Virus record (IMG/VR): IMGVR_UViG_3300005590_000035
Span: 20,379-84,378 of that record
DNA from: a virus
Length of the DNA: 64,000 bases
Reading direction: 5' to 3' (one strand)
Shown here: positions 10,376-61,623 of the stretch, piece after piece
Numbering within the stretch: position 1 is the stretch's first letter
Layout of the letters: each line of letters begins with the position of its first letter
Notes under the pieces: generated by a model
Told to the model about the DNA's origin: nothing
What the model saw: only the letters and a program-made list of their open reading frames with translations
Database searches by the model: none
Translations under genes and position numbers: made by a program

Positions 10376-12988
10376 ATGGATGCTATCGTCACGGCTTCGT
10401 TTTTACTGGTAGGTTGGAATACATATTCTGCCATCGTAGTGGCTAAAGATACCTATACAGGTAAGATGCCCGGACCTAAAAGTTTAGGATATTCTATTGC
10501 GGGACTTGCTGGCTTGTCGGCATTCCTTTTATATTTTTACGGCATTAAGGCCGAAGAAAATCCACAACTACTCGCAGCGGAAGATGATAGTTGGCAAGGG
10601 ATTTCACTTGCAGGTTCCGTTGATGAAATAGACGAAATGTTAGGACGCAAAAGAAAAGATGCAGAAGACCGGGACGAAGACGAACGCATGACCCGTGCCG
10701 AAGCCGAAGATTTAGTTCAAAAAGTTGAGAAACTTATGGCTCCTTATGTGGACCGACTGGAAGTTTGTGGTAGTTACCGCCGAGGTTCCCAAAGTCCCGG
10801 CGATTTAGATGTTATCATCATTCCCAAGAAAGGGATGACATTACCTATGATAGTCCAAGACATAAACCCAGCCCAAGTTAATTGGTTAGGAGAACAAAAG
10901 ACACAGATAGTGATTGATGGCCATAAAGTGGACTTTCGTGTTTCATCCACCAAAGGATGGGGTGCCGCACTCCTTTACTTTACAGGTCCCGCTGGTTACA
11001 ATATCGGTATGAGGATGCGAGCGAAAAAGTTAGGAATGAAACTTAATGAATATGGAATCTTTGACCGGGCCACAGACAAATACCTTGGAGGAGAAACCGA
11101 GGATGAGATTTACCAAGTTTTAGGCAAGACACCTAAAACTCCCGAAATGCGTAGTAAGCGAGCCGAGCAAACTTTTGTTCGCACAAAGGCCGACACCAAT
11201 AAGTGCTCCCATTGTGGAGTAATCGGAGAAACATTCACCGTCAAGGAAGAACATTTCTGCGGACCAGTTTGCCTACACAAATATGAAGGTTTGGCCGCTG
11301 AAGATAGTAGCCCGTATAGTTGGCTAACCGAAGGCGAGTGTGCAATGTGCAATCACGATGCCAAGTTTGTTGTGGAAGATTTAGCCGTAGGGACTCGTGG
11401 ATTTTGTTGTGAAGCCTGTTATGCGGTTTTTGTTGGACTTCCTGTAAAAGAAGAAGGTTACTATGGTTTGGCTGCCGAAACTCTTACCTTAGAAGCACCC
11501 CGGGCAACTTATACAGATGTCGGACAGCAAACTTTTGAGAAATCATATAACATCAAGGCCAAGAAGCCCTTGAATGCCATTGTCAAAGACAAGATGGCTG
11601 GGCAGTTACCATCCGATGACAGCCGAAAATATAACTGGAACCGGGATTTTACCATTTCAAACATGAGCAAAAAGGAATCTAAATTAGTTCAGCAGTATTT
11701 TAGTGGCTTATGTATGGCACACGCAAGATTTCAAACATCAAATGAAGGCAATGATTTAACATCAGTTCAAAATGCTACTGCCAATAATGCTTACATGAAA
11801 AGTTTGCGTGAGCAAGAATGGTTGAGAGCAGAACTCAAAGACTATGTTGCTATGCAAAATATGTCCGACCAAGAAATAGTGGACTACATAGCCGGAACAA
11901 ACAATGGCATGGACTTTGACGGTATGTTACAATTAATCCGATATTGTGAGTTAATGGAAGGCCCCTATGCAGACATCAAGATGGTTGCCACCGACAGGTC
12001 CCCGTTTGAAGTAAATGGTGGATATGGGAATGTTTATTATTCCTCAAGAAATCCTTATTCTTTTGAAACACTCTCCATGAAAAACTTTGGTTCATGGGAC
12101 GGGACAGACGATACTTTCAAATCCCGGGATGGACGGAGAGCCGGTAAAGTTTTCACCCGAATGACTAAATTAAGACCCTACACTACTTTCCCCGAAATTA
12201 CATCCGATGAAGATTCATACATTGAGTATCAAACAGATGGAGGTTACACCAGTAGTTCCAACTACTTCACTATGAGTCCAATGGTATTTGCCAATTTGAG
12301 TCGCCGAAGAAATGTGGATGGATATTCCGCTACTGTGGGTGCGGGGTGGAGATATAACATCAAAGATTGGGAGGGTGTAAAGTCCGCTCCATACCGATAC
12401 GCCACAATGGTTAGACTACCTACAATGGAAGAACTCTTTCAAGCATACGCTAAAAGCCCACCAATTAGCCGAGCAGATTTAGCGTCCATTTACAATAAGT
12501 CTAAGAACTTAAACTCCGTTGCAGAAGCCGCAAAGAAAAAGAAAGAAGAAGAGGAAAGAGCATTACGAGAAAAGCAAAGTAACCTCGCTGCCAAAAATAA
12601 GGCCCAAGCAGACTTAGAAGAAATCAATAAATCTATCGCCGTTCTTATCAAACAGAAAGTTACCGAAGCCCGAGCAGCGGGATTAGGTGATGATGAGATT
12701 TACGAAACTTTGGAAAACACACTCTATGATATTGAAGATATGGTCCATGACTGGGAACCAGACAACTACATGGCAGAAGAAGACCAAACTTTTGGTTGTG
12801 GAAGTTGTGGCATAGGGCCACTCCACACAACCACAGTTGAGGGTCTAAGTTTTGTGCTATGTCCCGATTGCGGATTGGTGAAAGGAAAGGAAGGGGCCAA
12901 TGATTGGAATGTTGATTGGTCGGAAGGAAAACCAAAAATTGCAGACCCACTCTTTGCCGACTTGGAGTGGGACGATTCGGAGGAGTAA
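10376..12988 (+). CDS. membrane-anchored polyprotein-like protein with a DNA polymerase family X domain
   Basis: 870 residues. Order: two N-terminal hydrophobic segments (about 4-24 and 38-57); an IKAEEN...LLAAEDD linker; a family X polymerase catalytic region with GSYRRGSQSPGDLDVIII (about 132-149, the two catalytic Asp), VDFRVS (third Asp) and ALLYFTGPAGYNIGMRMRAK then LNEYGIFD, as in Pol beta palm and thumb; two zinc modules (CSHC...FCGPVC and CAMC...FCCEAC) separated by GLAAEDSS; GLAAETLTLEA; a roughly 350-residue unrecognised domain; a Lys/Glu coiled coil (about 720-780); MAEEDQ; and a final zinc ribbon CGSC...CPDC. Soluble Pol X normally fills gaps in DNA repair; the membrane anchors and AAE-separated domains are unusual. 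Confidence 0.85.
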   Translation: MDAIVTASFLLVGWNTYSAIVVAKDTYTGKMPGPKSLGYSIAGLAGLSAFLLYFYGIKAEENPQLLAAEDDSWQGISLAGSVDEIDEMLGRKRKDAEDRDEDERMTRAEAEDLVQKVEKLMAPYVDRLEVCGSYRRGSQSPGDLDVIIIPKKGMTLPMIVQDINPAQVNWLGEQKTQIVIDGHKVDFRVSSTKGWGAALLYFTGPAGYNIGMRMRAKKLGMKLNEYGIFDRATDKYLGGETEDEIYQVLGKTPKTPEMRSKRAEQTFVRTKADTNKCSHCGVIGETFTVKEEHFCGPVCLHKYEGLAAEDSSPYSWLTEGECAMCNHDAKFVVEDLAVGTRGFCCEACYAVFVGLPVKEEGYYGLAAETLTLEAPRATYTDVGQQTFEKSYNIKAKKPLNAIVKDKMAGQLPSDDSRKYNWNRDFTISNMSKKESKLVQQYFSGLCMAHARFQTSNEGNDLTSVQNATANNAYMKSLREQEWLRAELKDYVAMQNMSDQEIVDYIAGTNNGMDFDGMLQLIRYCELMEGPYADIKMVATDRSPFEVNGGYGNVYYSSRNPYSFETLSMKNFGSWDGTDDTFKSRDGRRAGKVFTRMTKLRPYTTFPEITSDEDSYIEYQTDGGYTSSSNYFTMSPMVFANLSRRRNVDGYSATVGAGWRYNIKDWEGVKSAPYRYATMVRLPTMEELFQAYAKSPPISRADLASIYNKSKNLNSVAEAAKKKKEEEERALREKQSNLAAKNKAQADLEEINKSIAVLIKQKVTEARAAGLGDDEIYETLENTLYDIEDMVHDWEPDNYMAEEDQTFGCGSCGIGPLHTTTVEGLSFVLCPDCGLVKGKEGANDWNVDWSEGKPKIADPLFADLEWDDSEE
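12978..12984 (+). promoter_or_regulatory. Shine-Dalgarno sequence deciding a TTG start
   Basis: CGGAGGA just before the stop of the preceding gene, about 6-8 bases before TTG 12991. Confidence 0.6.
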
Positions 12989-33827: not shown

Positions 33828-33828
33828 T

Positions 33829-34447: not shown

Positions 34448-34547
34448 ATATGTCCCAGTAGGTGGCCCTTGTCGCCGTCAATGTGATGTGGATAAAAAGA
34501 CGCTCGTTTGTAATTCTTGTGGATTATCATATAAGAAGATAGAGTGA
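34428..34547 (+). CDS. 39-residue zinc ribbon
   Basis: GTG 34428 overlaps the end of the previous gene. CRRQC (15-19) and CNSC (28-31) make a four-cysteine ribbon, and the end GLSYKKIE is basic. The overlap chain from 33720 supports translation. Confidence 0.5.
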   Translation: MPKTTTEYVPVGGPCRRQCDVDKKTLVCNSCGLSYKKIE

Positions 34548-34550
34548 ACC

Positions 34551-34560
34551 TTTATCAAGG
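34551..34560 (+). promoter_or_regulatory. TATA-like box, divergent form
   Basis: TTTATCAAGG, 30 bases before ATG 34581. Confidence 0.5.
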
Positions 34561-34580
34561 TAGCAGACCATTAGACCCCT

Positions 34581-35792
34581 ATGAAAGTAGGTATTATCGG
34601 CGTAGGATTTGTCGGTTCAGCCGTCAAAGCCACGATGGAAAAGAAATATCAAACAGAAACATTTGATATTGAACCTTCCCTTTCAACCACTACTTCTATT
34701 GAAGAATTAGCAAAAAAATGCGATTGTATTTTTGTTTGTGTTCCCACCCCACCAGCCGCAGACGGAACTGTTGATACTTCCATTGTGGAATCTGTCTTAG
34801 CCGCCATAGGGAAGTCGGAGTGTGCGGTGGTTCTCAAATCCACCGTTCCACCCGGCTTTACCGAGGCGGAATCTCAAAAGATAGGAAGAGAAATAACTTT
34901 CAATCCGGAGTTCTTGACTGCTGCCAATGCTACCAAAGATTATGCTAACCAAAATCATACCATTTTAGGGGTCCAAGATACTGGAAGGCTAACTAATCAA
35001 GAATACCTCATCACCCAAGTTATAGGTGAAGCCTTGCCGCACACCGTCATAGTCCACACCTCTCATACCGTTGCCGAGATGACGAAGTATGCTCGGAACT
35101 GTTTTTTGGCCACCAAGGTGGCTTATGCTAATGAGATTTGGGGAGCCTGTTATGCCCTCGGCATATCGTATGACGAAGTTCGTTCCCTTATGGTTATGGA
35201 TTCAAGAATTATGGATTCACACCTTCAAGTTCCCGGACCGGACGGCAAGTTTGGATTCGGAGGGGCCTGTTTCCCTAAAGACACCGTTGGCCTCCACAGG
35301 GTCTTGAATACATTAGATGTCCCGAAAGAATTATTGGAAGGAGTTATTGCCAGCAATCTAAAAGTTAGGAATCGTATTGTAGGAGTTACAGCCGGGGCCT
35401 TTGATTTACTTCACGCCGGTCACATCAAACTTTTGGAAGATGCGAAAAGTCAATGCACACATCTAATTGTTCTATTACAGTCGGACCCTTCCATTGACAG
35501 ACCACACAAGAACAAACCCATTCAAAGTTTAGATGAAAGGTTGATACAGTTAGAAGCAGTAAAGTTTGTGGACCAAGTTTTAGTCTATGATACTGAAGCC
35601 CAACTTTATCAATTGCTTGAGAATCTCAAACCCGACATTCGTATTCAAGGCAATGACTGGAATGGCAAATCATATACAGGACAAGATTTGAATATACCTA
35701 TTTATCATCATGACCGACTTTCACATACATTTTCATCAACAGACCTAAGAATGCGTGTATTAGAGTCCAAAAGTCCGAAACTATCCGATTAG
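34581..35792 (+). CDS. fusion of nucleotide-sugar dehydrogenase (UDP-glucose/GDP-mannose type) and cytidylyltransferase
   Basis: 403 residues. Residues 1 to about 265: Rossmann start VGIIGVGFVGSAV, CVPTPPAADGTVD, KSTVPPGFTE, NPEFLTAANA, TKYARNCFLATKVAYANEIW and the catalytic FGFGGACFPKD (Cys about 230), all as in UDP-glucose/GDP-mannose dehydrogenases, but lacking their C-terminal UDP-binding domain. From about 270: VTAGAFDLLHAGHIKLLEDAK (HxGH), a TagD/RfaE-like nucleotidyltransferase. Suggests making or activating an unusual sugar or polyol for a glycan or glycolipid. The fusion is unusual; both active sites look intact. Confidence 0.9.
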   Translation: MKVGIIGVGFVGSAVKATMEKKYQTETFDIEPSLSTTTSIEELAKKCDCIFVCVPTPPAADGTVDTSIVESVLAAIGKSECAVVLKSTVPPGFTEAESQKIGREITFNPEFLTAANATKDYANQNHTILGVQDTGRLTNQEYLITQVIGEALPHTVIVHTSHTVAEMTKYARNCFLATKVAYANEIWGACYALGISYDEVRSLMVMDSRIMDSHLQVPGPDGKFGFGGACFPKDTVGLHRVLNTLDVPKELLEGVIASNLKVRNRIVGVTAGAFDLLHAGHIKLLEDAKSQCTHLIVLLQSDPSIDRPHKNKPIQSLDERLIQLEAVKFVDQVLVYDTEAQLYQLLENLKPDIRIQGNDWNGKSYTGQDLNIPIYHHDRLSHTFSSTDLRMRVLESKSPKLSD

Positions 35793-35806
35793 CAGGTCCG
35801 AATGCT

Positions 35807-35816
35807 TTAAGTATCA
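35807..35816 (+). promoter_or_regulatory. TATA-like box
   Basis: TTAAGTATCA, 29 bases before ATG 35836. Confidence 0.65.
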
Positions 35817-35835
35817 GCACAGCGAATGGTTCGGT

Positions 35836-36717
35836 ATGGCTTACTTCATCCGCCGATACCAAAAGGGTGTTGCTCAATCCGGAACAACTGATGTTTTCGT
35901 TTCGGATAGCGAAATCCCAATCTCTATGTTTTGTGAGATGGCGGAGATGGTAGGTCCCGGAAAATATATTCTTGGTCAGCGTGGGGAGGGTATTCGTGGT
36001 TTCAAAAAGATTACCGATACCATAGTCCCCGAACCAATTATGAAGGTGTTCGCAGCGGAAGATGAGTCAAACAAAGAAGATAGTGATTCAAAAGAAGATA
36101 CGAAAGAAGACGACACACCGGAAGTAACACCCGAATTGGTTGAAAAGAAGGAGAAAGCAACCTCCCCACCACCAGCACCAAAAACTGTGGAGCGTGAAAC
36201 TATTTCAATGCGCCGAACAGAAAAACTTAGTGACATGACTAATGAACAATTGAGCGAATTACTAAGCGGTATGGCCACTACCGAATTATCGGCCGAATCA
36301 ATTTCCACATTCCAAGCAGACCTCGCCCGAGTTCACACAGAAATGGCCGAGCGTGGTATGATAACACAACCAAAGAATGCCGAAGACCGAATCGTTATCG
36401 GAACTGGATTCAGCCCGTGGGCTGCTTTTGGTGTTGGAGGAGTAGTCGGTCTTGCAGTCGGTGTTTTGGGTAGTATGCACTACTACAAGAAAAAGATGGA
36501 TGACATCAATGTTAAACTCGCAGAAATGGATGCTTCAATCAAAGAGGCAGAATCAACCATTGGCAAACAGGAGAAAAAGATTATGAGGGCCGAAGAGAAA
36601 CAAGAAAATGCAGCCAAGGCAGCCGCTATTCCACAACCTAATGTGAAGGACCCTTTTGACCTTGACTTACAATTTTTATCATCTTATAATCGTAGCAATG
36701 GCAGGTTCCAACCTTAA
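35836..36717 (+). CDS. membrane protein with acidic linker, internal helix and coiled coil
   Basis: 293 residues. N-terminal small domain (to about 72) ending at VFAAEDES, then an acidic, Pro-rich linker, a helical segment, one membrane helix (about 200-220, FGVGGVVGLAVGVLGSM), a coiled coil of about 55 residues (KMDDINVKLAEMDASIKEAE onwards) and a short polar end. The AAED motif sits exactly between the first domain and linker. Possibly an envelope-associated or assembly protein. Confidence 0.75.
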   Translation: MAYFIRRYQKGVAQSGTTDVFVSDSEIPISMFCEMAEMVGPGKYILGQRGEGIRGFKKITDTIVPEPIMKVFAAEDESNKEDSDSKEDTKEDDTPEVTPELVEKKEKATSPPPAPKTVERETISMRRTEKLSDMTNEQLSELLSGMATTELSAESISTFQADLARVHTEMAERGMITQPKNAEDRIVIGTGFSPWAAFGVGGVVGLAVGVLGSMHYYKKKMDDINVKLAEMDASIKEAESTIGKQEKKIMRAEEKQENAAKAAAIPQPNVKDPFDLDLQFLSSYNRSNGRFQP

Positions 36718-40818: not shown

Positions 40819-43800
40819 ATGGCAGACGAAACTGATTTAGATAACACAATTACAACCGACTCCCTTGAGGATGGCCTCGTTACACCCGTTGTGCCTTCTA
40901 AGAAAGGAATGAATAAGAAAGAAGAAGAAGTCTTGATTCAAGCATTGGGTGAAGACATGGCCAAAAGAGTCATGGACGAAGCCTTAGTGTCTGTCAAGAA
41001 GATGGATGATGCTAACCGTTTTGAAGTTACTGTGGATAGGAACAAGACTCCACACACTTTGTTTTATTATGATGATGACGACATTATCATGGATGGTTCA
41101 CTTGAAAAGACTTCAAAGATTGGTAAGATTCTCAAGAACACCGCAAGTGCCGTAGGAAAATACAGTCAAGATGACATGGCACGAGCAGTAGGTAAATACC
41201 TTGACAGCCGAACAGTTATTGATACTGGCCAAGGTCGCCGTAAAACTCATGTAGCCCTTTCATCACAAGTTAGAAGACTTACTAAGAATCTTTCCGATGT
41301 ATTCGGGTTTGATGACCCACGCCAATTGGAAACTTTCATGGCCGCTTGGTTAATGAAGGATTCAACTTGCCGACTATCCGGTATTCCGGGAACAGGTAAG
41401 ACAACCGTTATTGAGAGTGCGGCTATTCTTATGGCCAACTCATACGGTTACTCTAATACTCCACGCTATGTCGGTGGTAATAATACTACTAACCTTTACA
41501 TGGCGGGACAAGATTACGAAGTTTATCTTAACAGCGATACTGAACTTCGCCGTGAGTGGGACGATTGGCGGTTCTCCGCTTGGAGTGCTGGTTCTTCAAA
41601 GAGTGGAGCCTACACTTTCGGCTTCCCATTCCTCCAAAAAGGCACAAGTAAGAAACCTTTGAGTCCCGAGGACTTTTCAAGAGCATTGTTCAACTGCACC
41701 GTCAAGGAAGAAGTGGACGCAGATGGCAAAGTTTTGCGAATCATTACTAAACCTTTGATGGTGAATAAAGATACTAAGACTACTGCGGCTAACATTAGTG
41801 AGCGTCAAGGAAAGGGCGGACCACTTTATTCTGTGGATTATTCCACTATTCTTTCCGGTAGCGAAGAGTTTGAAACTGATGCGGGACGCAACGAAGGTTA
41901 CGCTTTCCGTGAGTGGTTGATGGAGAACTTCTATGATGCTCGGTTAGACCAAGAACGCTCCGGTATGAAGTCTATTCAATCCGAGATGCTAAAAGAAATA
42001 GGCATTGCTAAGATTGACTACGATAAGAGGGCTGATGAGGTTCTTTATGGTATGGAAATCCAGCAAATCACTACTGACATGGATGGTAAGAGTGTATCAG
42101 CGTATGCCTTTGAGCCTATTCCTCGTCCCGTAGTTACTCAACCAATCAAGTTCTTTAACGAAGCAAACCGTTCTCAATCCGGTGTTGAAGATGCAATTCT
42201 TGGTTTGATTGCTGAAAAGACCGTTGAATACCGTGGTAAAACTTTTGATTCGCCGTCTTTCGTGGCTTGGATGGATACTAACCCTCACCAAAAAGGAAAC
42301 GACCTTGCATTTATTGACCGTATTGATACGGAACTGTTCTTTACTACTATTACTCTTGGTGAGCGATATGCACAACTAAATGAAAGATACCGTGCAAAAG
42401 GCGGGCAAGCCCCACAACAATTGTTGGTTGGTCGTATTACTAATGATAATAATTCCGATGAGGCAATTAAGCCTTACAGATTTAACGACCTTGATAATGT
42501 TTGGGAGTTCGTAGGAACTATGCCGTTTGCACCTCCGGCAGCGGAAGGTGTGTATGATGGATTGCGAGATATTGCTATGCTGTCCGTTCTCTTCACTCAA
42601 AGATACTTTATTCGTGAGGATAAAACTTCTGTCCTTGGAGATGGAAACCTTGAGCACACCCTTTATAGTGCAAGTGATATTCACCAATCACCATTGATGG
42701 ATATTTCTAAGGCTTCTAACGATATGCTTTTGAAAGACCCTCAAGAAACTTTCGCTACCCGATTTGGTAATAAGGAAGATGGAACCGGATTCCAAGCCCC
42801 AGCATTGTTCCGCCGTGTTCTCGGTTTCCGTTTCACTAACTCATTAGTTAAACTATCTCGTGCCTTCGCATTCTTGCGTGGTAAAGACTATGTAAGCCGT
42901 CAAGAAATCCTTGATGCCCTACCTTATGTTATCGGTCATCGTCTTGGACCGGCCCGTGCTGGTGAGGACTCCGAAGGAAGAACCAATGGTTTAGTTTCTA
43001 ACAAAGCATTCGGAACTCTTCTTAATGAACAGGAGATGATTCGTGAGTTCGTAGTTCACGGATATTTGTTAGCAGATACACCTTCACTTCTTGGAGATGT
43101 GACCCCAAGAGCAGGTGGCACTAATCAAACTATGATGGATGCTTGGGACGCTTTCTTTTCACGATGTCAAGAAAGTTTGAAGTCTTCCACAAACTTTGTG
43201 GATTTTGAGGCTAATGTGCTATCACCAGTCAAGAATGAATTGATTAGCGGGGACGGAGCAGTTATTAGCGGTTATACCCCAGTTCATTGGCATTTGGCCT
43301 CTATGATTGTTGAGAATGAGCGTAAAGGTGTAACTGTAAATGCAGATTATGGAGTTCATGGTAACTATCGTAAAATGTATGAAAACTATTTGCGTCTAAT
43401 GGACCGCCCTACTGATGCTGATGTGAGCACCTCGGCCGCTCTCACCCAAGATTACTCTATATGGGACTACTATGACCTGCGTGGAACCATTGCTCGTGAA
43501 CCACATCTATTTACAGATGACCGTTGCCGATTGCTGGCTCTTGTTGAATCTCGTATCAACACAATTGCGAAGGGTCCCTACTCTAATGTGGACGCTCCAC
43601 CACAACAGGCGAGCCGTATTGCGTTAGCAACTGCGACTCAATTCCCTAACACCGGTAATGCGTTCCGCATTGAACCTAACCCACTCAAACTTACTCTTAG
43701 AACTTATGGAGATGCACTCGGGGCTTACGGTTACCTAATCAGCCAAGGAAACAACAACATTGACCCACAATCCATTGATGTCAAGTCAGCGAAGTTTAAC

Positions 43801-44526
43801 CTTAATGTAGCCAATTGGTCCGACCAAACAATGGTCTTAACTGATTACTACCCATTCAACTTTACTGATGTTTCAGCGAATCCAACTAAGGCAGACTTAC
43901 AACGAAGTCAAATGTTCCAACAATTGAATGCTTTAGAAGATAGTTTCGGTCCAATGACTGGTCAAGGAATGAGATTCTTTGGTGATGATGAACAAGCCTA
44001 CCAAAACATTGGTGACTTGTCTGTATTTTTAGCCCAAGTTCAGCAAACTATTGTCAATGCTATGGGTGGGGACTCACTCGCTATTGCAGAAATCCAAAAT
44101 GGAACTTTGATGGCTTGCTTTGAATTAGACCACGCACCTAACAGCCTTGGTGCAGCGGAACTGATTAAGAGAGGAGTTTTGAGTCAAGATAATGATAGTC
44201 TGCGTCTATGGCTAAAATTAAGACCAATTGGTGACTTTACACAAGAGTCCACAGCCGCAGCATTTATGTTCACTATCGGTATCAGCAGTAACTTATTGAT
44301 TGGCAACAGTTATGAGAACAATAAGGGAGTCATCACAGAAACTATTGGAAGTTTAGCAGCCATTACAGACAAAGCAGTTCTAAATTACAAAAACTTTGGA
44401 GCAGCCTCAAGTGCAACCAGCACAACTGGCTGGGATGTGAAGGGTATGGCCGATGCTGGAAACATGACCGGACAGGATTTAGCGTATTATCAAATGCTTT
44501 ATCGTCAAGTAATTTCCGGAGAATGA
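40819..44526 (+). CDS. giant MoxR-like AAA+ ATPase
   Basis: 1235 residues, about three times a usual MoxR. Walker A SGIPGTGKTTVIESAA (about 188-203); the Walker B region FFNEANRSQSGVEDAILGLI (about 444-463) with the MoxR pattern E-x-N-R; sensor region FVAWMDTNPHQKGNDLAFIDRIDTEL (about 482-507). The long C-terminal half is not recognised. MoxR ATPases act with VWA-domain proteins to remodel or activate protein complexes; here a HExxH protein, a zinc-ribbon protein and a VWA protein follow within 5 kb. No Phi-[GA]-A-E motif was seen. Confidence 0.9.
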   Translation: MADETDLDNTITTDSLEDGLVTPVVPSKKGMNKKEEEVLIQALGEDMAKRVMDEALVSVKKMDDANRFEVTVDRNKTPHTLFYYDDDDIIMDGSLEKTSKIGKILKNTASAVGKYSQDDMARAVGKYLDSRTVIDTGQGRRKTHVALSSQVRRLTKNLSDVFGFDDPRQLETFMAAWLMKDSTCRLSGIPGTGKTTVIESAAILMANSYGYSNTPRYVGGNNTTNLYMAGQDYEVYLNSDTELRREWDDWRFSAWSAGSSKSGAYTFGFPFLQKGTSKKPLSPEDFSRALFNCTVKEEVDADGKVLRIITKPLMVNKDTKTTAANISERQGKGGPLYSVDYSTILSGSEEFETDAGRNEGYAFREWLMENFYDARLDQERSGMKSIQSEMLKEIGIAKIDYDKRADEVLYGMEIQQITTDMDGKSVSAYAFEPIPRPVVTQPIKFFNEANRSQSGVEDAILGLIAEKTVEYRGKTFDSPSFVAWMDTNPHQKGNDLAFIDRIDTELFFTTITLGERYAQLNERYRAKGGQAPQQLLVGRITNDNNSDEAIKPYRFNDLDNVWEFVGTMPFAPPAAEGVYDGLRDIAMLSVLFTQRYFIREDKTSVLGDGNLEHTLYSASDIHQSPLMDISKASNDMLLKDPQETFATRFGNKEDGTGFQAPALFRRVLGFRFTNSLVKLSRAFAFLRGKDYVSRQEILDALPYVIGHRLGPARAGEDSEGRTNGLVSNKAFGTLLNEQEMIREFVVHGYLLADTPSLLGDVTPRAGGTNQTMMDAWDAFFSRCQESLKSSTNFVDFEANVLSPVKNELISGDGAVISGYTPVHWHLASMIVENERKGVTVNADYGVHGNYRKMYENYLRLMDRPTDADVSTSAALTQDYSIWDYYDLRGTIAREPHLFTDDRCRLLALVESRINTIAKGPYSNVDAPPQQASRIALATATQFPNTGNAFRIEPNPLKLTLRTYGDALGAYGYLISQGNNNIDPQSIDVKSAKFNLNVANWSDQTMVLTDYYPFNFTDVSANPTKADLQRSQMFQQLNALEDSFGPMTGQGMRFFGDDEQAYQNIGDLSVFLAQVQQTIVNAMGGDSLAIAEIQNGTLMACFELDHAPNSLGAAELIKRGVLSQDNDSLRLWLKLRPIGDFTQESTAAAFMFTIGISSNLLIGNSYENNKGVITETIGSLAAITDKAVLNYKNFGAASSATSTTGWDVKGMADAGNMTGQDLAYYQMLYRQVISGE

Positions 44527-44535
44527 ACACAAAGG

Positions 44536-44547
44536 TTAAAGTAGTCG
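44536..44547 (+). promoter_or_regulatory. TATA-like box with an extra A
   Basis: TTAAAGTAGTCG, 30 bases before ATG 44566. Confidence 0.6.
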
Positions 44548-44565
44548 CCGCCCCAACAAGATATT

Positions 44566-45759
44566 ATGGGTGCCTACGACAAGTTATTCCACGATGGTCC
44601 GACACATCTTCCACAGGAGTTTATTGACAAATATAATTTACTACGGGAATGGTATGCTATGCCCGATATTCCTCTAAAAATTGGCCTATCACAACATGGT
44701 GCACATACAGATATGAACTCCATTGAAATGGGAATCCAAATGGTCGCCGCTTGTTTGAAGCCTAACTATCACGGTTTTTCTCCTAAAGAATTAGAAGAAG
44801 TTGCAGGTGCGGCTACATATTTCGTGTTAGCACACGAGATGGCTCACAACAATACACATCCGGGCCGAGAAGTAAAAACTTGGGAAGCCTCCGTTAAAGA
44901 TGTGGATGTTGAGAATCAAGATAAGTTCCGATGGATGAACATTATTTCCGATATTTGCATTAACTATAATCTTATCAATGGTATGAATATCACACCCGGA
45001 ATTACTGGTAAAGACCGTCAAGAGATTGCCGATTACATGAGGATGGGTTTAATGACCGAGATTTTCATGCGTAGGTGTCCTGTCTTGGGTGCCGCTTCCG
45101 ATGTAGTGAATAAAGGTGTGAATGTCTATGGCGAAACCATAACTGACAACCGTGTATTAGATGATGCCGGAGTCCCACTTTCAATGGATGAAAACACCCC
45201 ACTTTGGGTTCAATATCAAGGATATGGCCGAGGTGAGCAACTTTACCCCAGCATTGCCTATTGTGTTGAAAAGCAAATGAGTGAGCGTTGGAGAAAAGTT
45301 AGGTGTTTGAAAGGCAGCACAGCGAATGGAGTAAGGGCTGGAAACACTTACACAGTCACTAATGTTCGGACCTATGACGGCAGAATGCCCGGAAATAAAG
45401 CATTCTCCCCTTGGGAACCTATCAAAGATTATGAAGTTAATGGTAAATGGCAATCTTCACGCTACTTCCTATCCCTATGCCCCGATACCGCAGAAATCGC
45501 TCCTTGCATTTGGGAGGGAATCGGAATGGCTGACGGAACTATGAATCGTTATTGGTGGGCTTTCGTGAGTAAGAAAGAATCCCGAAGCACCAAAGGAGCA
45601 GGTTATGAGTATCTCGGAACGCAACTATTTTTATATGAGTGGGCTGGCATTTATGGGACTAATTATCCTCGTTATGCCGGTAAGAAAGGTCAAGCAGCAG
45701 CGGAGCAATGGATTGAGGATGTGTCCGAGGATATGCACCGAGTTATGATATACAGTTAG
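44566..45759 (+). CDS. predicted zinc metallopeptidase of the MoxR/VWA-associated (DUF2201-like) type
   Basis: 397 residues. FVLAHEMAHNNTHPG (about 86-100) supplies the zinc-binding HExxH, with WMNIISDICINYNL downstream giving Asp ligands as in DUF2201 N-terminal domains. The rest has beta-rich segments with no call. In bacteria and archaea such a domain is commonly fused to a VWA-like domain and sits next to a MoxR ATPase; here the parts are separate genes in order ATPase, peptidase, zinc protein, VWA. Its substrate is unknown. Confidence 0.8.
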   Translation: MGAYDKLFHDGPTHLPQEFIDKYNLLREWYAMPDIPLKIGLSQHGAHTDMNSIEMGIQMVAACLKPNYHGFSPKELEEVAGAATYFVLAHEMAHNNTHPGREVKTWEASVKDVDVENQDKFRWMNIISDICINYNLINGMNITPGITGKDRQEIADYMRMGLMTEIFMRRCPVLGAASDVVNKGVNVYGETITDNRVLDDAGVPLSMDENTPLWVQYQGYGRGEQLYPSIAYCVEKQMSERWRKVRCLKGSTANGVRAGNTYTVTNVRTYDGRMPGNKAFSPWEPIKDYEVNGKWQSSRYFLSLCPDTAEIAPCIWEGIGMADGTMNRYWWAFVSKKESRSTKGAGYEYLGTQLFLYEWAGIYGTNYPRYAGKKGQAAAEQWIEDVSEDMHRVMIYS

Positions 45760-45773
45760 GGGGTCTTGAATAC

Positions 45774-48020
45774 ATGAGTTATATTGATAATCCTTACAAT
45801 TCCGATGTTGGAAAAGCATTGCTAAAGAAAAATCTAACCAACATATTTTTGGTTGGAGAGCAGCCTAACAGTTTAGAAAGCGACTCCAAAGAAACGATGG
45901 TTTCAAACTTTAGGCAACAAACTAATTCAATAATCACAATCATGAAGCGGTTTGTGAAAGGCTACAAACAAATTAGCCTTGGTAATTCCTATGACTCGGG
46001 AATCTATGTTTGCCCCAACGAAAGTTGCGGACGAAGAGATTTCATTTATCATTGGGAGTCCGTTGATTTAGGGCTTTACAGTCCTAAAGATTGGTTAGGC
46101 ACCGTGAAACCCAGCAAAGTCAATAGCGGTATCCCTAATTATGGAAAAGGTAATTACATGATTATGCACCGTGTTAGGTGTAATACAGTCACGACTTGTA
46201 ATAAGTGTCATATTACTTACCAAGGTAAAGTAACAAATTGCCCCAATGTGGCCTGTAATGGTGGTTCCGAATATATGAAAACCGTAGGGTGTGGTGAAGA
46301 AGCCTGTGCTATTCACTATGTAAAAGAGAAAACTTTGATGCAAGAATACCCAACCAATGAACTAACTGCCGGAAGAGGGCAAAGTTACAACCGAGCAGTT
46401 ACAACATTCCGTCATGGATTGGTGCGAGAAACAAGGGGAGAAGATGTGGCATTTGAAATTGTCCCACCTTCAATGAGGACACCAATGAGTGGACTCCCAC
46501 AAGATTTAGAAAGTATTACTAATTATACACCCGTATTTAGGATGACCTATGGTGCAGAAAATAGAACCAAGGTAGTTAATTATCCAATTTCCCTCTATCG
46601 TTATGGATTCACAAGAATTAACCGAAGATTCTGCATGGGATTACCCGATGGAAGAGGTGGGAGTATGCACCAAAACTACCGCTATGACGGCCGTGTATGG
46701 CTCACAGACATGAATGGTAGGGAAACTGCCGCTTGCCCTCAATGTGGTGGAATGGAACCTCCAACAGTCATTCAAAGTAGGCAACTTTTACAACCAAGAC
46801 CATTAGTAATTGAGAATCCACAACCACTTAGTCAAGCCGATGTGTTGGCGAGTCATGAAGGGCAAGTTATGTGGCAAATGTATTTGAGCGACCCATCAGA
46901 CTCAAGAGAGCGTTCAAACTTTTTAGTCCCAGTTGCTCAAGCATGGAACCTTCAAAAGATTCCAACAGAAGTTACCGTTGCCGAAGTAGGTATTGGTCGT
47001 TCTTCTTGCCCTAATGATGTTGGTTTCCAAAATGCAGTCACGGATATTAAACAAGCAGAAGGTGAGAAAACAGAAAGCATTGTTGATTATTTAGCCCTAC
47101 CTCGTGCAAGAGTTATAACTATCAAGGGTCAATATGAAGATGATTATAAGAAGGCTAAAGAGGATAATGCTATTCCATCTATTTTTGCTAAGAAGCCCGA
47201 AGGTTATGTCGTCTGTGTGAAATCCGAATCAGGAGATACCGTCACCGTTAGCGGAATTGAGGTTGCAGAAAATGGAAAGGCCGGATGGACTCTAAAATTG
47301 GAGAAGAAACAATTAGATTATTTCTCCAAAGGTTTAGGTGAGTCGGGTCCTAACTTTACTTATGCTGTCTGTGAAGGCCGTTCTAATGCGGCTTTCAAAT
47401 GGGATGGTAAGTGGGTGGATTGTAGCCAACCCTGTGTTTCCTACCGTTCTCAAGATGGAAAAACTATGAAGAGTGCAAGACAATATCCTCGTTTTAATGA
47501 ATACCCCGAATGGTATTTGGAGGGTTATGAATCCGATGAGTGGCGCAGAACCAAAGATAATTTGATACGGTCCGCACCTCCACCACCTGACCCTGCGGGA
47601 TTACAAGTTGGGAAATCTTATTTATGGATGGATGAATTATCACACCTCATCATGGACCCGTTGCGATATGGGCCGATTGTGGAAGGAGCGGTTAATAATC
47701 TCATGACCTACCATACCGTTAAGTCAATTTCGGAAGAAATTAACCTTGACCTTGGCAGTAAAACTGTGATTAATGAATGCCAAACTTGTAAAAAGGCATA
47801 TCAAGCGGGCGGTATTGAGAAGTCCCGACAAGCAGAAGGATTTGTTGATAAGGATGGTAAGACGAAGGCAGCATTCATTTATCCACAAGAAGTTTTTGAC
47901 TTAGAAGTTAAGTATCAAGAAAAGTTTGGAATGAATATCCTTGACAAGCCAATTGCTTGGGGTGTGGAAGGTCGTGGAAAAGATATGTTGAGTAACCCAT
48001 CTCAAATAAGGATTGATTAA
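45774..48020 (+). CDS. multi-zinc-site protein of the MoxR/VWA module
   Basis: 748 residues, 14 bases after the peptidase stop, behind GGGGGTCTTGAATAC. Cysteine pairs at CPNESC, CNTVTTCNKC, CPNVAC, CAQC-like CPQCGG and CQTCKK indicate at least three zinc sites. One MTYGAEN motif is present. Ends three bases before the VWA gene. Probably a substrate-binding or scaffolding component of the module (inference). Confidence 0.78.
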   Translation: MSYIDNPYNSDVGKALLKKNLTNIFLVGEQPNSLESDSKETMVSNFRQQTNSIITIMKRFVKGYKQISLGNSYDSGIYVCPNESCGRRDFIYHWESVDLGLYSPKDWLGTVKPSKVNSGIPNYGKGNYMIMHRVRCNTVTTCNKCHITYQGKVTNCPNVACNGGSEYMKTVGCGEEACAIHYVKEKTLMQEYPTNELTAGRGQSYNRAVTTFRHGLVRETRGEDVAFEIVPPSMRTPMSGLPQDLESITNYTPVFRMTYGAENRTKVVNYPISLYRYGFTRINRRFCMGLPDGRGGSMHQNYRYDGRVWLTDMNGRETAACPQCGGMEPPTVIQSRQLLQPRPLVIENPQPLSQADVLASHEGQVMWQMYLSDPSDSRERSNFLVPVAQAWNLQKIPTEVTVAEVGIGRSSCPNDVGFQNAVTDIKQAEGEKTESIVDYLALPRARVITIKGQYEDDYKKAKEDNAIPSIFAKKPEGYVVCVKSESGDTVTVSGIEVAENGKAGWTLKLEKKQLDYFSKGLGESGPNFTYAVCEGRSNAAFKWDGKWVDCSQPCVSYRSQDGKTMKSARQYPRFNEYPEWYLEGYESDEWRRTKDNLIRSAPPPPDPAGLQVGKSYLWMDELSHLIMDPLRYGPIVEGAVNNLMTYHTVKSISEEINLDLGSKTVINECQTCKKAYQAGGIEKSRQAEGFVDKDGKTKAAFIYPQEVFDLEVKYQEKFGMNILDKPIAWGVEGRGKDMLSNPSQIRID

Positions 48021-48022
48021 TT

Positions 48023-49045
48023 ATGTCGTCATTTACCGAGAGAGCCAGTTGGACTGAAAATCCATTCGTATTTCAAACGCACGAACCCTTACCGCAAGGA
48101 GTTCCGATTGATATTGAAACTGTCCCTCTTCACAAAGCCCTCTATGATAAGTTAGCAAAACTTGTGATTCCTTCACCGAAGTCTAAAACGGACCCGTGGA
48201 GTGACAAAGGCCGCCGAGAATGGAGGCCGGGATATGACCCAATTACTAAGGTGGACCCAACCACAGTTGCACCGGGATTAGTTGAAGGTATGCCTCTCCA
48301 ATCAAGACGCAGAAAAGAACCACAAGGAGATGGTGGAAAGGCCACCTTCTTGAATCTTATTGTGGATGTTTCCGGAAGTATGTCCTCTCCAATGGGTGGT
48401 GGGGGTCAATGTTTTGGTTATTATGATGGATTACCTCTTGGTGGGGAGGACTTAGCCCGAGTAGTTACACCACTTATGATACGAATGGCGAAACAGAATG
48501 GAGATAAGTTTCAAGTAATCCGTTTCGGTTCATCGGCTACCGTTGATTGGCCGGGACCTGCTACTGATTATGACGATGCAATCGCTTATTACACTAACTC
48601 AACTACTGCCGGTGATAGAGGACGACCATTAGCGGGGACTGAAAGTGCCACTAATACAGAAAAAGGTTTGGCCTTGACCCGCTTTGAGATGGAACGCTAT
48701 CTTGAGGAAGAAAACCTTGATGTTAAAGCCGCCGTTACCATTGTCATTAGTGACGGTCATTTCTCTTATGGCTCTTGCATGAGTGATGATACTTGGCTTC
48801 GCCAGTATGGACCTGTTTTCTATGTGTTTATCGCACCCAAAGAGGGTGCTATGGCCGGAGCAGTTCAAGGAATGAGAGAGGCACTCAAGCAAACACACGG
48901 AACATTAGGGTGTAAAAATTGTGTAGTGGACTTCGCTCCAAGTGTGGGACAAGGAGGCACCGTAACCGGATTTGCAGGTGCTTTAGTGGAGATGTGTCAA
49001 GCCAATGCAGGTGAGGCAGTTGATTGTGGCTCATATAATGAGTGA
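48023..49045 (+). CDS. von Willebrand factor A-domain protein
   Basis: 340 residues. LNLIVDVSGSMSSPMGGGG (about 111-129) contains the metal-ion-dependent adhesion motif DxSxS, and VTIVISDGHFSYG (about 243-255) supplies the later Asp. VWA proteins are the usual partners of MoxR ATPases, presenting substrates or completing a metal site. Starts two bases after the zinc-protein stop, so translated together with it. Confidence 0.9.
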   Translation: MSSFTERASWTENPFVFQTHEPLPQGVPIDIETVPLHKALYDKLAKLVIPSPKSKTDPWSDKGRREWRPGYDPITKVDPTTVAPGLVEGMPLQSRRRKEPQGDGGKATFLNLIVDVSGSMSSPMGGGGQCFGYYDGLPLGGEDLARVVTPLMIRMAKQNGDKFQVIRFGSSATVDWPGPATDYDDAIAYYTNSTTAGDRGRPLAGTESATNTEKGLALTRFEMERYLEEENLDVKAAVTIVISDGHFSYGSCMSDDTWLRQYGPVFYVFIAPKEGAMAGAVQGMREALKQTHGTLGCKNCVVDFAPSVGQGGTVTGFAGALVEMCQANAGEAVDCGSYNE

Positions 49046-49085: not shown

Positions 49086-50309
49086 ATGACTACCGGAGGT
49101 TCTAAATCGGGAGAGATTGTATTAGGTGAGAACCTATCGTTTCCAGCGTATGGTGAAAAATCACTTTCTTCGCAAGTTGTTTTCGTAACTGGTAAGCGTG
49201 GTAGTGGTAAGTCTTGGACTTCCGGAGTGATGATGGAAGAGATGGAACGCTGTGATTTGCAGTTCGTTTGTTTTGATACATTAGGAGCACATAAAGGTTT
49301 GGAACAATTACCAAATGTTGAAATGATTACTCCTCGTGACGATGAAACTTTGGATATGCAAGGAATAGTGGATAAAGTAGCCAACAGTAACAAAAGTTTG
49401 GTCCTTAACCTAACTGGTTGCGGTCTTCCGAAACAACAACTCCTTATCGCAGACTATTGTGAAGCACTCATTGATACTAAAATTGGCCACAATCATGGCA
49501 AAACTTTGATGACTGTTTTTGAAGAATGTCAAGATTATGTTCCTCAACAGGGCAAGCCAGTTTCCCACAACGCTATTGTGAGGTTGTGCAAACTTGGTCG
49601 TGGATTGGGTTATGGATGCACACTTGTTACTCAAAGACCGGCTTCATGTAGTAAGGAAGCCGTTTCTCAAGCAGCCATTTATCTAACACACAATGTAATT
49701 AACTCTCGGGATTTGAAAGCCTTGGAAGACCAACTAAGTTTTGGAACAGACAAAGATAGGATTAAGAGAATCCTTCAAGGAGTTACTGCGGCACAAAAAG
49801 GTGAGTGTGTTGCTTTCGCCCCCGAGTTCTTCCGTAACTCCGGTTACATACGAATCTCAAAAATTAGAGGTGACCGCCGAACAAAACATTCGGGTGGTAA
49901 CATATCAGCCGCACCAGTAAGCAGTCTATCCAATTCCGAGAACACAAATAGTGGAGGTTCAGCATATAGCCCATCCACCAGTAGCGGAAGTATGTCCTAC
50001 CCTTCCAACATGAAACCACTTACTTCATTCGGAACTGATTGGAGTTCAGCCGAGAATGCACTCCCCAACTCTCCAACTAATCCCTACGCATCCAGCGACA
50101 TGGGTGCTGACACCTTCAAAACTGAAACCGAAGAACCGCCAGTAGTTTGGCTGCCTCCGGTGGATTACGATGCTCCAATAGGAGTGCAAGAAGAGATGGC
50201 TGCCGAAGATGGTTCACCATTTGGTGGTGCCGGACCTATCGTGGGAATGGTAATCGCTTTGGGTATGGCCGCAGGTGGATTCGTTCTCATCAAAGGTCTA
50301 AGCGATTAA
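49086..50309 (+). CDS. HerA/FtsK-superfamily ATPase with a C-terminal membrane anchor (candidate genome-packaging motor)
   Basis: 407 residues. FVTGKRGSGKSWTSGVMMEE (Walker A, about 35), KTLMTVFEECQDYVP (Walker B with Glu pair, about 139-153), then CTLVTQRPASCSKEAVSQAA and INSRDLKALEDQL, the HerA-type Gln/Arg segment. From about 275 a Ser/Pro linker with DMGADTF and EMAAEDGS leads to a C-terminal membrane helix (about 382-403). HerA-like ATPases move DNA; relatives package genomes in several archaeal viruses with internal membranes. The tail anchor would fix it to a membrane. A recombination-helicase role is the alternative. Confidence 0.85.
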   Translation: MTTGGSKSGEIVLGENLSFPAYGEKSLSSQVVFVTGKRGSGKSWTSGVMMEEMERCDLQFVCFDTLGAHKGLEQLPNVEMITPRDDETLDMQGIVDKVANSNKSLVLNLTGCGLPKQQLLIADYCEALIDTKIGHNHGKTLMTVFEECQDYVPQQGKPVSHNAIVRLCKLGRGLGYGCTLVTQRPASCSKEAVSQAAIYLTHNVINSRDLKALEDQLSFGTDKDRIKRILQGVTAAQKGECVAFAPEFFRNSGYIRISKIRGDRRTKHSGGNISAAPVSSLSNSENTNSGGSAYSPSTSSGSMSYPSNMKPLTSFGTDWSSAENALPNSPTNPYASSDMGADTFKTETEEPPVVWLPPVDYDAPIGVQEEMAAEDGSPFGGAGPIVGMVIALGMAAGGFVLIKGLSD

Positions 50310-57901: not shown

Positions 57902-58462
57902 ATGAGGGCTTGGCAAGTCAATGACCGTGTAAGTAGCATTGCTACAAGTTATCCAGTTCCCGGCCGCATCATTAGAATAGGTTTTGAGAACATTGAAGTT
58001 CGTTGGCCCGATGGGTCTTGGAGCCGTGAAAGACCTCAAGATTTAATTTTTGGTGGGCGTGATGAAGACCCTGTGACACCTATGGGTTCTAATATACCAG
58101 TTGTAAATCCAACACCGAATCAAGGATGGGGAAGGATTCTCCCATCATTCAATGCAGAAAGTTTCGCTGCACAAGGAATGCCTAACTTTTCAAAACCTCT
58201 TAATCCGGAATCACGGACAAGAGAAAACTATGCTCAAAATAGTTTGACCGGAGTTATTACTCCTACTGTGGAAGTGCTACCTCAACCTTGGGGTAGTGGC
58301 AGTTTTACCTCACTACTGGTTCCTACCCGTAGCGGAACAGTCCGTCAAAACAATGTTCCCAATTCTTTGGTTGAAAACTTCCCAACATACGAGCGTATGT
58401 ATAGACAGTCCCGACAACCCGGAGCAGCCATTCCTATGATTGCGAAGGGGGTAATCTTTTGA
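57902..58462 (+). CDS. protein with an SH3/KOW-like N-terminal domain
   Basis: 186 residues. WQVNDRVSSIATSYPVPGRI then GFENIEVRWPDGSWSRERPQ looks like a small beta-barrel (about 1-50). A polar, Pro/Asn-rich region follows (FNAESFAAQGMPNFSKP). Its TGA overlaps the next TTG start. Possibly paired with the next protein, which has a similar barrel (DWKVGDVVNVSRP...LEVTWPPDE). Confidence 0.7.
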   Translation: MRAWQVNDRVSSIATSYPVPGRIIRIGFENIEVRWPDGSWSRERPQDLIFGGRDEDPVTPMGSNIPVVNPTPNQGWGRILPSFNAESFAAQGMPNFSKPLNPESRTRENYAQNSLTGVITPTVEVLPQPWGSGSFTSLLVPTRSGTVRQNNVPNSLVENFPTYERMYRQSRQPGAAIPMIAKGVIF

Positions 58463-59364
58463 GTCAATATCAAGAAGCCCAACAAGCACTAATGGAACTT
58501 GGAATTAATTTAGTTAATGCAAGACCTATTCCACCACATTGGAAAACTTTGGATACTGAAGTTATAGGACCCTACCAAATTACATGGGCTGTGGCTCCCG
58601 AGTTTTATACAGGTTACGAAAAAGGAGAAGGCCAACAAGTAGTGGGAGGCTTCGGTGCCGCCGGGATTAATAAGTTCGGAATTGAAATTGAAGTTCGCAC
58701 AGCACAAAACTTTGGAACAGATAGAGTGTTGGAAGACGCTCCGTTTGAAAGACAGGAGGCCCTGTATCAAGAAGTTCTCAAAACTTTGGAACGCTTGGCG
58801 TATCCCCCAGATTCATACAAGTTGGTGGGAACTACTATTGTGGAAAGTCCCTTAGCACCTACGGGCCGAGATTGGAAAGTTGGGGATGTTGTAAATGTTA
58901 GCCGACCTACACACGATGGCGGAGCATTCACATTAGGAATAGTTACCCGTATTTACCCTACCACGCTGGAAGTTACATGGCCACCGGATGAAATGCACCC
59001 TCGTGCATGGACTACAACCGAGGAGAAAAAACACATGATTCTTGTTCGTAACAATCCGGAATGGAGAAATAAGGTTAATACTTGGTATGGTCGCAAAGAA
59101 TATGCCGCCGAGGGGAAACCGCCTTCTTGGACTCAATTAGTTAAGATGGATAAAGAATTACTACCTCGTCAATCACCTTTACCCTACTCTAAGGACACGA
59201 CTCATGAACGCAATCAACAATTGAAAGTCATTGAAGTAGCCTTAGAGCCATTCAAAATACATGAAGGAAGTGAGTTAGTAAATTGGAATCCTACCGATTT
59301 AGCAGGGAGTAGGGCCATAGAAGGCTACGCCCCATACACAGGAGTGTTTCCCCGAAGTCTTTAA
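58459..59364 (+). CDS. protein with an internal SH3/KOW-like domain
   Basis: 301 residues from TTG 58459, overlapping the previous stop. Helical start, a beta region (GIEIEVRTAQNFG), then WKVGDVVNVSRPTHDGGAFT and TLEVTWPPDEMHPRAW, the same barrel pattern as the preceding gene, and EYAAEGKPPSW. Tandem related genes may have arisen by duplication of the barrel. Function unknown. Confidence 0.75.
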   Translation: MSQYQEAQQALMELGINLVNARPIPPHWKTLDTEVIGPYQITWAVAPEFYTGYEKGEGQQVVGGFGAAGINKFGIEIEVRTAQNFGTDRVLEDAPFERQEALYQEVLKTLERLAYPPDSYKLVGTTIVESPLAPTGRDWKVGDVVNVSRPTHDGGAFTLGIVTRIYPTTLEVTWPPDEMHPRAWTTTEEKKHMILVRNNPEWRNKVNTWYGRKEYAAEGKPPSWTQLVKMDKELLPRQSPLPYSKDTTHERNQQLKVIEVALEPFKIHEGSELVNWNPTDLAGSRAIEGYAPYTGVFPRSL

Positions 59365-59370
59365 GTATCG
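59361..59370 (+). promoter_or_regulatory. TATA-like box
   Basis: TTAAGTATCG, 29 bases before ATG 59390; contains the previous stop codon. Confidence 0.65.
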
Positions 59371-59389
59371 GTGGAGTGAATGTTTCAGT

Positions 59390-59794
59390 ATGCAGATGCC
59401 TTCATGGATTCTTGGACTTACTGCTGGGCTACTTGTAGGCTATGCAGCAAAGAAGTCGGGCCTTACAGAAAAGTTTGGTGCTGATATGGGAATCTCCGAG
59501 CAACCATATATGACTCGTAACATGACTCCCGCAGATTATGAAGAGGCTTATGTGGAATCTTCCGGTGCTACCGCAGATATTATTCCAGTCGTTATGTCGG
59601 ATGAGTTCGTGGGAAGTTACATGGGTAAAGAATTACTGGACCTACAAATGACTACTAACTGTTTCAATGACGACCCTTGGGGTGGACCAATTACTGATGT
59701 GCAAGCATACTGGGAGAACCCGTATGCACCTAAAGATTGCCCTACCTGTGATGGAACCCCAATAGGCCCTAACCTTGACGGTTCAACAATGTGA
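59390..59794 (+). CDS. N-anchored membrane protein with a KFGAD motif
   Basis: 134 residues. Membrane helix about 4-20 (PSWILGLTAGLLVGYAA), KKSGLTEKFGADMGISE right after it, then an acidic soluble part with CPTC near the end. Same anchor-KKSG-motif order as the next gene, so the two are probably paralogues in their N-termini. Confidence 0.75.
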   Translation: MQMPSWILGLTAGLLVGYAAKKSGLTEKFGADMGISEQPYMTRNMTPADYEEAYVESSGATADIIPVVMSDEFVGSYMGKELLDLQMTTNCFNDDPWGGPITDVQAYWENPYAPKDCPTCDGTPIGPNLDGSTM

Positions 59795-60390: not shown

Positions 60391-61623
60391 ATGACAGACG
60401 CAGTTTGGATAGTAACTGATAACTATTTTAGTATGGACCCCGATGCGGGCCGAAATACTCAACGACCCGGACCCATTTATAATGCTCCGTGGATGATTCC
60501 AGCATCTCAATATGCTAAACTTTCCACAGATGATAAAAAGAAGTTCCTCAAGTTACAATGGCTATTCATTGACGGTGAGAAAGATTCAACCGGCCGTGAA
60601 GTGTATCTAATTGATATTGAAGGTGATGTTTGCGAGATTTACGCTTACGAAGGTTCGGACGACATTGTTTCGGAGTTTGAAGTAGGACCCGGAAATGAAT
60701 ACTTAAACTATTATGGAGTTAGCGATTTTTTGACTACATGGAAGGAAATGAAAGAAGAAGTAGGAAGTGCACTCGTAAGTGGAGAACCACCTAATGGAAC
60801 ATTTACTATTGAAAAGTTTGTAACTGATAATCAAGAATTGAAAGACCTTTGGGCCGCTCTCAAAAAATCAGAACGAGAAATGGGTGAACCTAAGAATGCA
60901 GAAACAAACTTTTCCGCAGAAGGTGTGGAATACAAGTTTGCACTTATCGCTAAATATCCCGATACGGATGTAAGCGAGGCTACATGGGAGAAGATTCCGG
61001 AAGGAATGGACGCTATTGACAAAACTCATGTTACTCTTGTGGGTGGTCAAGCCCTCAAAGGATTCAAACAAGAATTAAAAGAAGGCACTAAATCAATTAT
61101 CGCTGGAATGCCCGAACCCCCTAAGCCCGAATTGGGACGCACAGGTGTAGCATATCGTGAAGGGAATGATGGTGAAGTTCGTGAAACATATTTTATGGAA
61201 ATTGGTAATCAAGAAGATTATCAAGATTACGCCGACAAACTTTGTGACGCACTTGGTATAGCCAATCCCGAACCGGATAGATTCTTCCACATTAGTATTG
61301 CTAACAATCATGGTGGAAATCCTTTCAAAAGTGTTGGAGATATTTCTGAATCCGACCTACACGGCTTTGCCGCAGAAGATGTTCCGCTGGGATACCATGC
61401 AACCCTCGCCGCAGATGGAGAAACAATTGTGGTTGAACCCGATGCTTGGTTGGCTGAAACTTTTGGATTAGCCGCTCCCGCCGATGCGTATGCCTTTGCC
61501 TTTGGTGAGGGATATAGAGATGGGAGAGAAAACAAACCTTATCAACCAATTTTGAAGCCAAGAGATAGAGATTTATTTCGTGATTCGTTCAAACTTAAAC
61601 CCGATACTCGCCGAACTGTCTAA
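60391..61623 (+). CDS. 2H-phosphoesterase-like protein flanked by AE motifs
   Basis: 410 residues. N-terminal acidic domain (about 1-165), NAETNFSAEGVEYKFA, then a domain with THVTLVGG (about 212) and FHISIANN (about 299), the paired HxTx/HxSx motifs of the 2H phosphoesterase superfamily (RNA ligase/cyclic phosphodiesterase-like; phage Acb1 belongs here). GFAAEDVPLGYH follows, then a C-terminal segment with FAFGEGYRDGRENK. The central enzyme domain is bounded by motifs that look like cleavage sites. Possible roles: RNA end processing, or destroying cyclic nucleotide defence signals; sequence alone cannot decide. Confidence 0.75.
   Translation: MTDAVWIVTDNYFSMDPDAGRNTQRPGPIYNAPWMIPASQYAKLSTDDKKKFLKLQWLFIDGEKDSTGREVYLIDIEGDVCEIYAYEGSDDIVSEFEVGPGNEYLNYYGVSDFLTTWKEMKEEVGSALVSGEPPNGTFTIEKFVTDNQELKDLWAALKKSEREMGEPKNAETNFSAEGVEYKFALIAKYPDTDVSEATWEKIPEGMDAIDKTHVTLVGGQALKGFKQELKEGTKSIIAGMPEPPKPELGRTGVAYREGNDGEVRETYFMEIGNQEDYQDYADKLCDALGIANPEPDRFFHISIANNHGGNPFKSVGDISESDLHGFAAEDVPLGYHATLAADGETIVVEPDAWLAETFGLAAPADAYAFAFGEGYRDGRENKPYQPILKPRDRDLFRDSFKLKPDTRRTV

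Follow-up and report, generated by a model that had tools for sequence, protein, structure and literature searches.

Layout of the 2H-encoding locus

The window analyzed here is a 64,000-nucleotide stretch of viral DNA that forms part of an 84-kb IMG/VR record. Its forward strand (+) contains an ATG-initiated ORF at 60391..61623 encoding a 410-aa protein, which consists of a lineage-specific N-terminal domain, a 2H phosphoesterase cassette, and a C-terminal tail. The N-terminal 'carrier' domain (60472..60858, +; residues ~28-156) is common to the syntenic modular proteins of related viruses. Downstream of it, on the same strand, lie FSAE, a candidate cleavage site (60910..60921; residues 174-177), and then the 2H module itself (60922..61377; residues 178-329, 152 aa), which contains the first catalytic motif, HVTL (61027..61038; residues 213-216, including H213 and T215), and the second, HISI (61288..61299; residues 300-303, including H300 and S302), after which comes A-N-x-x-G-x-P-x-x-S, a signature of the family. 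The module ends with a second candidate cleavage site, FAAE (61366..61377, +; residues 326-329), and the remaining C-terminal tail (61378..61620, +; residues 330-410), for which relatives were sought and none found, carries an additional LAAD at residues 339-342. The ORF, the HVTL/HISI pair, and the FSAE/FAAE bracket had all been pointed out in a preliminary description and are present as stated there. Phosphoesterases of this two-histidine (2H) type cleave RNA ends or nucleotide signals. No activity-bearing domain other than the 2H domain was recognized in the protein.

When the 410-aa protein was shuffled, a pair of H-hydrophobic-[TS]-hydrophobic motifs 55-120 residues apart arose in only 0.015% of shuffles, and such a pair occurs in none of the other ORFs of a 150-kb record, IMGVR_UViG_3300027845_000169 (G001), that contains a 100% identical copy of this ORF. 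The two [FYLMW][GAS]AE sites in the protein compare with 0.13 expected from shuffling (P = 0.008). The stretch that they enclose is 152 residues long, and stand-alone homologues are 150-175 aa. Because G000 and G001 represent the same virus, G001 is not independent evidence, and the 2H insertion is known from a single lineage.

The virus and its late region

The genes of G001 include those for the two subunits of the archaeal DNA polymerase D (PolD) as well as for TFB, MCM, and PCNA (33052-36612, 137873-139213, 10816-11787, and 26655-28346 in G001; 7230-8000 in the window). From these genes, the host is presumed to be archaeal; the virus, a marine one, is probably an archaeal virus. With the 410-aa ORF, its 638-aa neighbor, or the packaging ATPase as query, only the same virus was recovered. 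A repeated 212-aa protein used as query identified three related viruses: G014 (166 kb), G015 (160 kb), and G016 (123 kb). Relatives in these genomes were found for 111 of the 171 ORFs of G001, and the PolD large subunit shares 54-55% identity with its counterparts in all three.

A family of repeated proteins with the pattern M-x-x-R-x-Q-x-Y-E-W ... LPGQxWD ... DALIAxKLL (G001 44955-46644 and 58280-59574; window 23342-26799) is well conserved within the group, at up to 78% identity, and its members are candidate major virion proteins. The sole packaging-like ATPase seen is a HerA-type enzyme with a C-terminal hydrophobic anchor (window 49086-50309), and a search for Terminase_6N was empty. Within the late region, window positions 40819-49045 hold a cluster of a MoxR-like AAA+ protein, a zincin-like metallopeptidase with the motif HEMAH, and a vWA protein; each has relatives in G014 and G015, and the cluster is possibly assembly or maturation machinery. 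The metallopeptidase (44566-45759) is one candidate for a protease shared by the group. The protein encoded at 19448-21133 of the window has TSP3-like DxDxDG repeats of the calcium-binding type, with long GQG repeats separating them, and parts of this protein match ORFs in all three relatives.

Homologues and profile comparisons

Searches of Pfam, PHROGs, PDB sequences, and phage genomes (tblastn) with the 410-aa ORF gave no match above chance, and the Pfam 2H models PF13563 and PF02834 stayed below threshold. A DNA pattern encoding RFFH[IV]S-x-A-N recovered a stand-alone 175-aa phage homologue (E 6e-23) with both histidines aligned, and a relaxed pattern combined with an alignment search added about fifteen further homologues from IMG/VR, which make up a family of ~150-aa phage proteins. 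Pattern scanning also returned a single distant homologue, from Myxococcales (profile E 2.3e-5), and one false match, L043, which by eye resembles a GntR/FCD-type regulator. A search of genome contigs with a two-sequence alignment found no match. The first motif, H-x-T, had been left out of the DNA search patterns and is invariant in 18/18 aligned rows; R-x-F-H and N..G.P..S near the second motif are invariant as well.

To place the family, we compared its profile with those of known 2H enzymes. The window domain alone aligned to the rest of the family with an hhalign P of 1.1e-22. The family profile scored 40.6 against bacterial ThpR (P 9.3e-6) and 26.2 against Acb1 (P 0.002), compared to at most 15.6 and 19.0, respectively, for reversed or column-shuffled controls. 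The known relationship between ThpR and Acb1 scored 37.5, comparable to the score of the family against ThpR. Several family members also gave sub-threshold matches to 2_5_RNA_ligase2, LigT_PEase, HVSL, and 2H-SAK. On the strength of these alignments, the domain in the 410-aa ORF is a genuine 2H phosphoesterase that looks catalytically intact; the invariant H-x-T and the ThpR score bear out the earlier assignment of a 2H-phosphoesterase-like domain.

A structure search had been proposed in the preliminary description. For residues 163-342, AlphaFold modeling from an alignment gave a pLDDT of 68 and a pTM of 0.66, whereas a single-sequence model of the full-length ORF (pLDDT 35) was useless. 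The top seven PDB fold matches of the former were all 2H enzymes (drCPDase, Usb1, MHV ns2, and Arabidopsis CPDase), but these Foldseek matches were individually non-significant (E 0.18 or worse, TM < 0.3). The list of viral Foldseek matches, which are also individually non-significant, is rich in 2H annotations, with Acb1 among them.

Presence and absence of the 2H cassette at a syntenic locus

The three related viruses encode proteins of 735 aa (G014), 556 aa (G015), and 783 aa (G016) at the same place, and these share the N-terminal domain of the window ORF. The N-terminal domain of the window protein matched G014 in tblastn (E 5e-6), and hhalign of the window N-terminus gave a P of 1.7e-6, compared to 0.62 for a reversed control. 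When a profile of residues 1-175 of the G014 and G015 proteins was searched against the G001 and G016 proteomes (hmmsearch), the two best matches were the syntenic ORFs (E 1.9e-5 in G001 and 6.7e-7 in G016; next match 0.5). Each syntenic orthologue contains 4-6 AE motifs, compared to 0.2-0.35 expected, and the 2H domain is absent from all three. Because these orthologues keep the N-terminal domain and the AE motifs without the 2H domain, the 2H module is, by sequence comparison, a cassette swapped at one syntenic locus; it may have been gained in the window lineage or lost in the relatives. G014 and G015 share a different module, which ends in GVAWD-x-V-x-x-[ML]-GLAAE; in both genomes, AE sites mark its two ends.

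The AE motif throughout the virus group

In G001, [FYLMW][AGS]AE occurs 45 times forward and 8 times reversed, and shuffling predicts about 9 occurrences. These counts, together with the P value within the 410-aa protein, uphold the earlier observation of bracketing AE motifs. Forward and reversed counts were 39/12, 24/9, and 36/5 in G014, G015, and G016, respectively, and 144 versus 34 for the four genomes pooled (G001 included), whereas unrelated phage loci showed no excess (10 forward, 11 reversed). We rejected chance as an explanation of the motifs on the basis of the reversed-motif and control-phage counts, although the reversed count implies that roughly a quarter of single AE sites may be fortuitous. 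The positions of the G001 motif are each specific, with Ala at P2 and Glu at P1 standing out over all other residues. A short motif with Glu at P1 is thus common to many proteins of the four genomes, as in head proteins processed by prohead proteases. Searches of G001 for S78 (PF04586) and S77 (PF03420) prohead proteases were empty.

The AE motif also brackets a second enzyme. An 870-aa protein (10376..12988, +) contains an N-terminal hydrophobic stretch, LAAE at residue 66, a DNA polymerase X domain (residues 104-259; Pfam DNA_pol_B_thumb 3e-17), and further LAAE motifs at residues 306 and 365, and its G015 orthologue has FGAE directly ahead of the PolX domain. As read from these sequences, DNA polymerase X is a second AE-bracketed enzyme. 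In G014, a Cu/Zn superoxide dismutase domain (1.5e-40) occurs in a 923-aa modular protein (L089:15394-18162) together with DUF5872 and AE motifs; relatives in G001 and G016 carry DUF5754 and DUF5872.

Comparable placements of the 2H family are found in polyproteins of unrelated phages, where it sits between copies of a repeat particular to each. A 3102-aa ORF of phage record G003 contains five FSK motifs (0.45 expected), two of which enclose a member of the family, and in proteins of G012 (723 aa) and G002 (738 aa), it lies between two SRALNPCGQ...GNTCAAG units. In the head module of G012 (L073 1078-11862), the SR[AS]LNPCGQ...GNTCAAG unit recurs from one ORF to the next. The 2H polyprotein and a neighboring ADP-ribosyltransferase are among these unit-bearing ORFs, which lie upstream of the genes for an S78 prohead protease and for the HK97 capsid protein.

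A proposed release mechanism and its alternatives

We propose that, in a set of late or virion-like proteins of this virus group, [F/L/M/Y]-[G/A/S]-A-E delimits the modules and is most likely recognized by a maturation protease, which would cleave after Glu. Cleavage behind E177 and E329 would release a 2H enzyme of 152 residues. This enzyme would be carried in the particle and delivered, and it would act at an early stage inside the cell as a phosphodiesterase that is independent of metal. Because of the affinities to CPDase and Usb1, 2',3'-cyclic-phosphate or 2'-5'-linked RNA or oligonucleotides would be likelier targets than the small 3'-5' cyclic di-/trinucleotides of CBASS, and the outcome might be a blunted nucleotide- or RNase-based host response or remodeled RNA. 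We assign a probability of about 0.5 to this reading, in which a carrier domain, a 2H cassette, and a tail make up a protein whose central module is cut out after Glu as a virion-delivered phosphodiesterase. Release of the domain, perhaps from an incoming particle, had been suggested in the preliminary description; the bracketing AE sites make release a reasonable expectation, but the S77 and S78 searches supplied no protease for it.

Those empty protease searches would also fit a lineage-specific interaction or linker motif that docks proteins to a scaffold, membrane, or capsid and leaves the 2H domain tethered. Under such a scheme, it would be natural that AE sites are not conserved in some orthologues, as is the case for the site in the packaging ATPase among relatives, and that some lie near hydrophobic stretches. 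Counted per ORF, AE motifs and hydrophobic segments were not significantly associated (P 0.22). The specificity of all four positions, with P1 strongly Glu as for the T4, phiKZ, and SPN3US head proteases, argues against simple docking, as does the location of the sites at module edges, such as one per end of the module shared by G014 and G015. We regard permanent tethering as somewhat unlikely.

Other explanations differ in what the enzyme does. LigT/ThpR-type CPDases are the closest profile match and among the closest fold matches, and a role in RNA repair has been proposed for phage 2H proteins (PMC9503650, PMC7824862); the domain might thus be a 2',3'-cyclic phosphodiesterase that acts with an RNA ligase in RNA-end healing or tRNA repair, restoring RNAs that host RNases have cleaved. 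Direct support for a repair partner encoded by the virus is lacking, however, because a search of the 150-kb record found no RtcB and the ligase gene in the vicinity specifies a DNA ligase (phrog_114 5e-60; DNA_ligase_A_M 3.6e-21), and the AE-bracketed placement is unlike an RNA-repair operon. We consider this role unlikely. Destruction of 3'-5' cyclic di-/trinucleotide CBASS signals, as by Acb1, is more doubtful. Acb1 (T4 gp57B, phrog_755) belongs to the same superfamily, both catalytic motifs align with its profile, and Acb1 proteins appear among the viral fold matches, but the affinity is weaker than that to ThpR, and the spacing between histidines is 87 residues in the window domain compared to 69 in Acb1. 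In Acb1, E141 and W147 contact the bases, and residues 145-152 form a lid (PMC9117128). These elements are part of about 39 residues that follow its second histidine, whereas most stand-alone members of the window family stop about 15 residues past the corresponding position in the alignment and are without the E141/W147/lid region. We ruled out membership in Acb1 on the basis of the lower sequence affinity and the absent C-terminal lid. Moreover, tblastn with T4 Acb1 matched 1443 phage records in a collection in which the window ORF and the stand-alone family members had no match, and phrog_755 does not match the window, so the specific Acb1 link raised in the preliminary description was not borne out. 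A counter-defense role of some kind is plausible for the 2H module; neither a defense target nor a further anti-defense gene was identified. Least probable, in our estimation, is that a degenerate 2H fold serves as a non-catalytic structural module of the particle. The domain is embedded in a putative structural region, and we know of no 2H domain in such structural-type proteins that has been shown to be active, but both H-x-[ST] motifs and A-N-x-x-G-x-P-x-x-S are kept despite only 23-35% identity to relatives.

A broader scenario can be entertained, which we put forward tentatively and hold to be possible rather than probable: a lineage of large, PolD-encoding archaeal viruses would load swappable cargo (2H, polymerase X, and perhaps Cu/Zn superoxide dismutase) into modular virion proteins, and a so far unrecognized kind of protease would cleave these at [FLMY][GAS]AE. 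The 2H family would then be cargo that recurs in virions of unrelated archaeal and bacterial viruses, each of which inserts the cassette between copies of its own processing motif. The presence of 2H domains in injected phage proteins was predicted in 2017, with their mode of release unclear (PMC5512222). The domain edges, the lineage-wide motif, and the comparison of syntenic genes that carry or lack the cassette turn the present locus into a concrete, testable case of release. If the proposed release holds, virion-delivered enzymes and motif-guided polyprotein processing would extend to large, presumed archaeal viruses, and the AE motif would be a signature for finding further cargo enzymes and the protease.

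Comparison with known systems

Like the window domain, the bacterial ThpR/LigT RNA 2',3'-cyclic phosphodiesterases, the best profile match of the family, have two H-x-[TS] motifs and the same order of elements, but the window family adds a virus-specific A-N-x-x-G-x-P-x-x-S after the second motif. Similarity to Acb1 is much weaker, and the window domain, unlike Acb1, is embedded in a modular protein.

The processing of head proteins in SPN3US, phiKZ, and T4 offers a parallel for the AE motif. The SPN3US protease cleaves after A-X-E (PMC5694885), and the T4 and phiKZ head proteases likewise cleave after Glu (PMC5694885, PMC10052503). Their sites (A-X-E / S-X-E / [IL]-X-E) resemble the AE motif in being short and Glu-ended and in occurring in many virion-like proteins and at module edges, whereas the motif here, a candidate cleavage site, is [FLMY]-[GAS]-A-E, with Ala at P2 and a small residue at P3.

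The polyvalent proteins (Iyer et al. 2017, PMC5512222) resemble the window ORF in having a 2H domain within a multi-module virus protein, and 2H domains in these injected proteins have been proposed to be RNases or signal-degrading enzymes (PMC5512222; PMC9503650). By comparison, the window virus is presumed archaeal, has a HerA-type ATPase and no recognized Terminase_6N, S77, or S78, and its ORF has one recognizable enzymatic domain only. The 2H proteins of G003 and G012 resemble the polyvalent proteins that are proposed to be injected.
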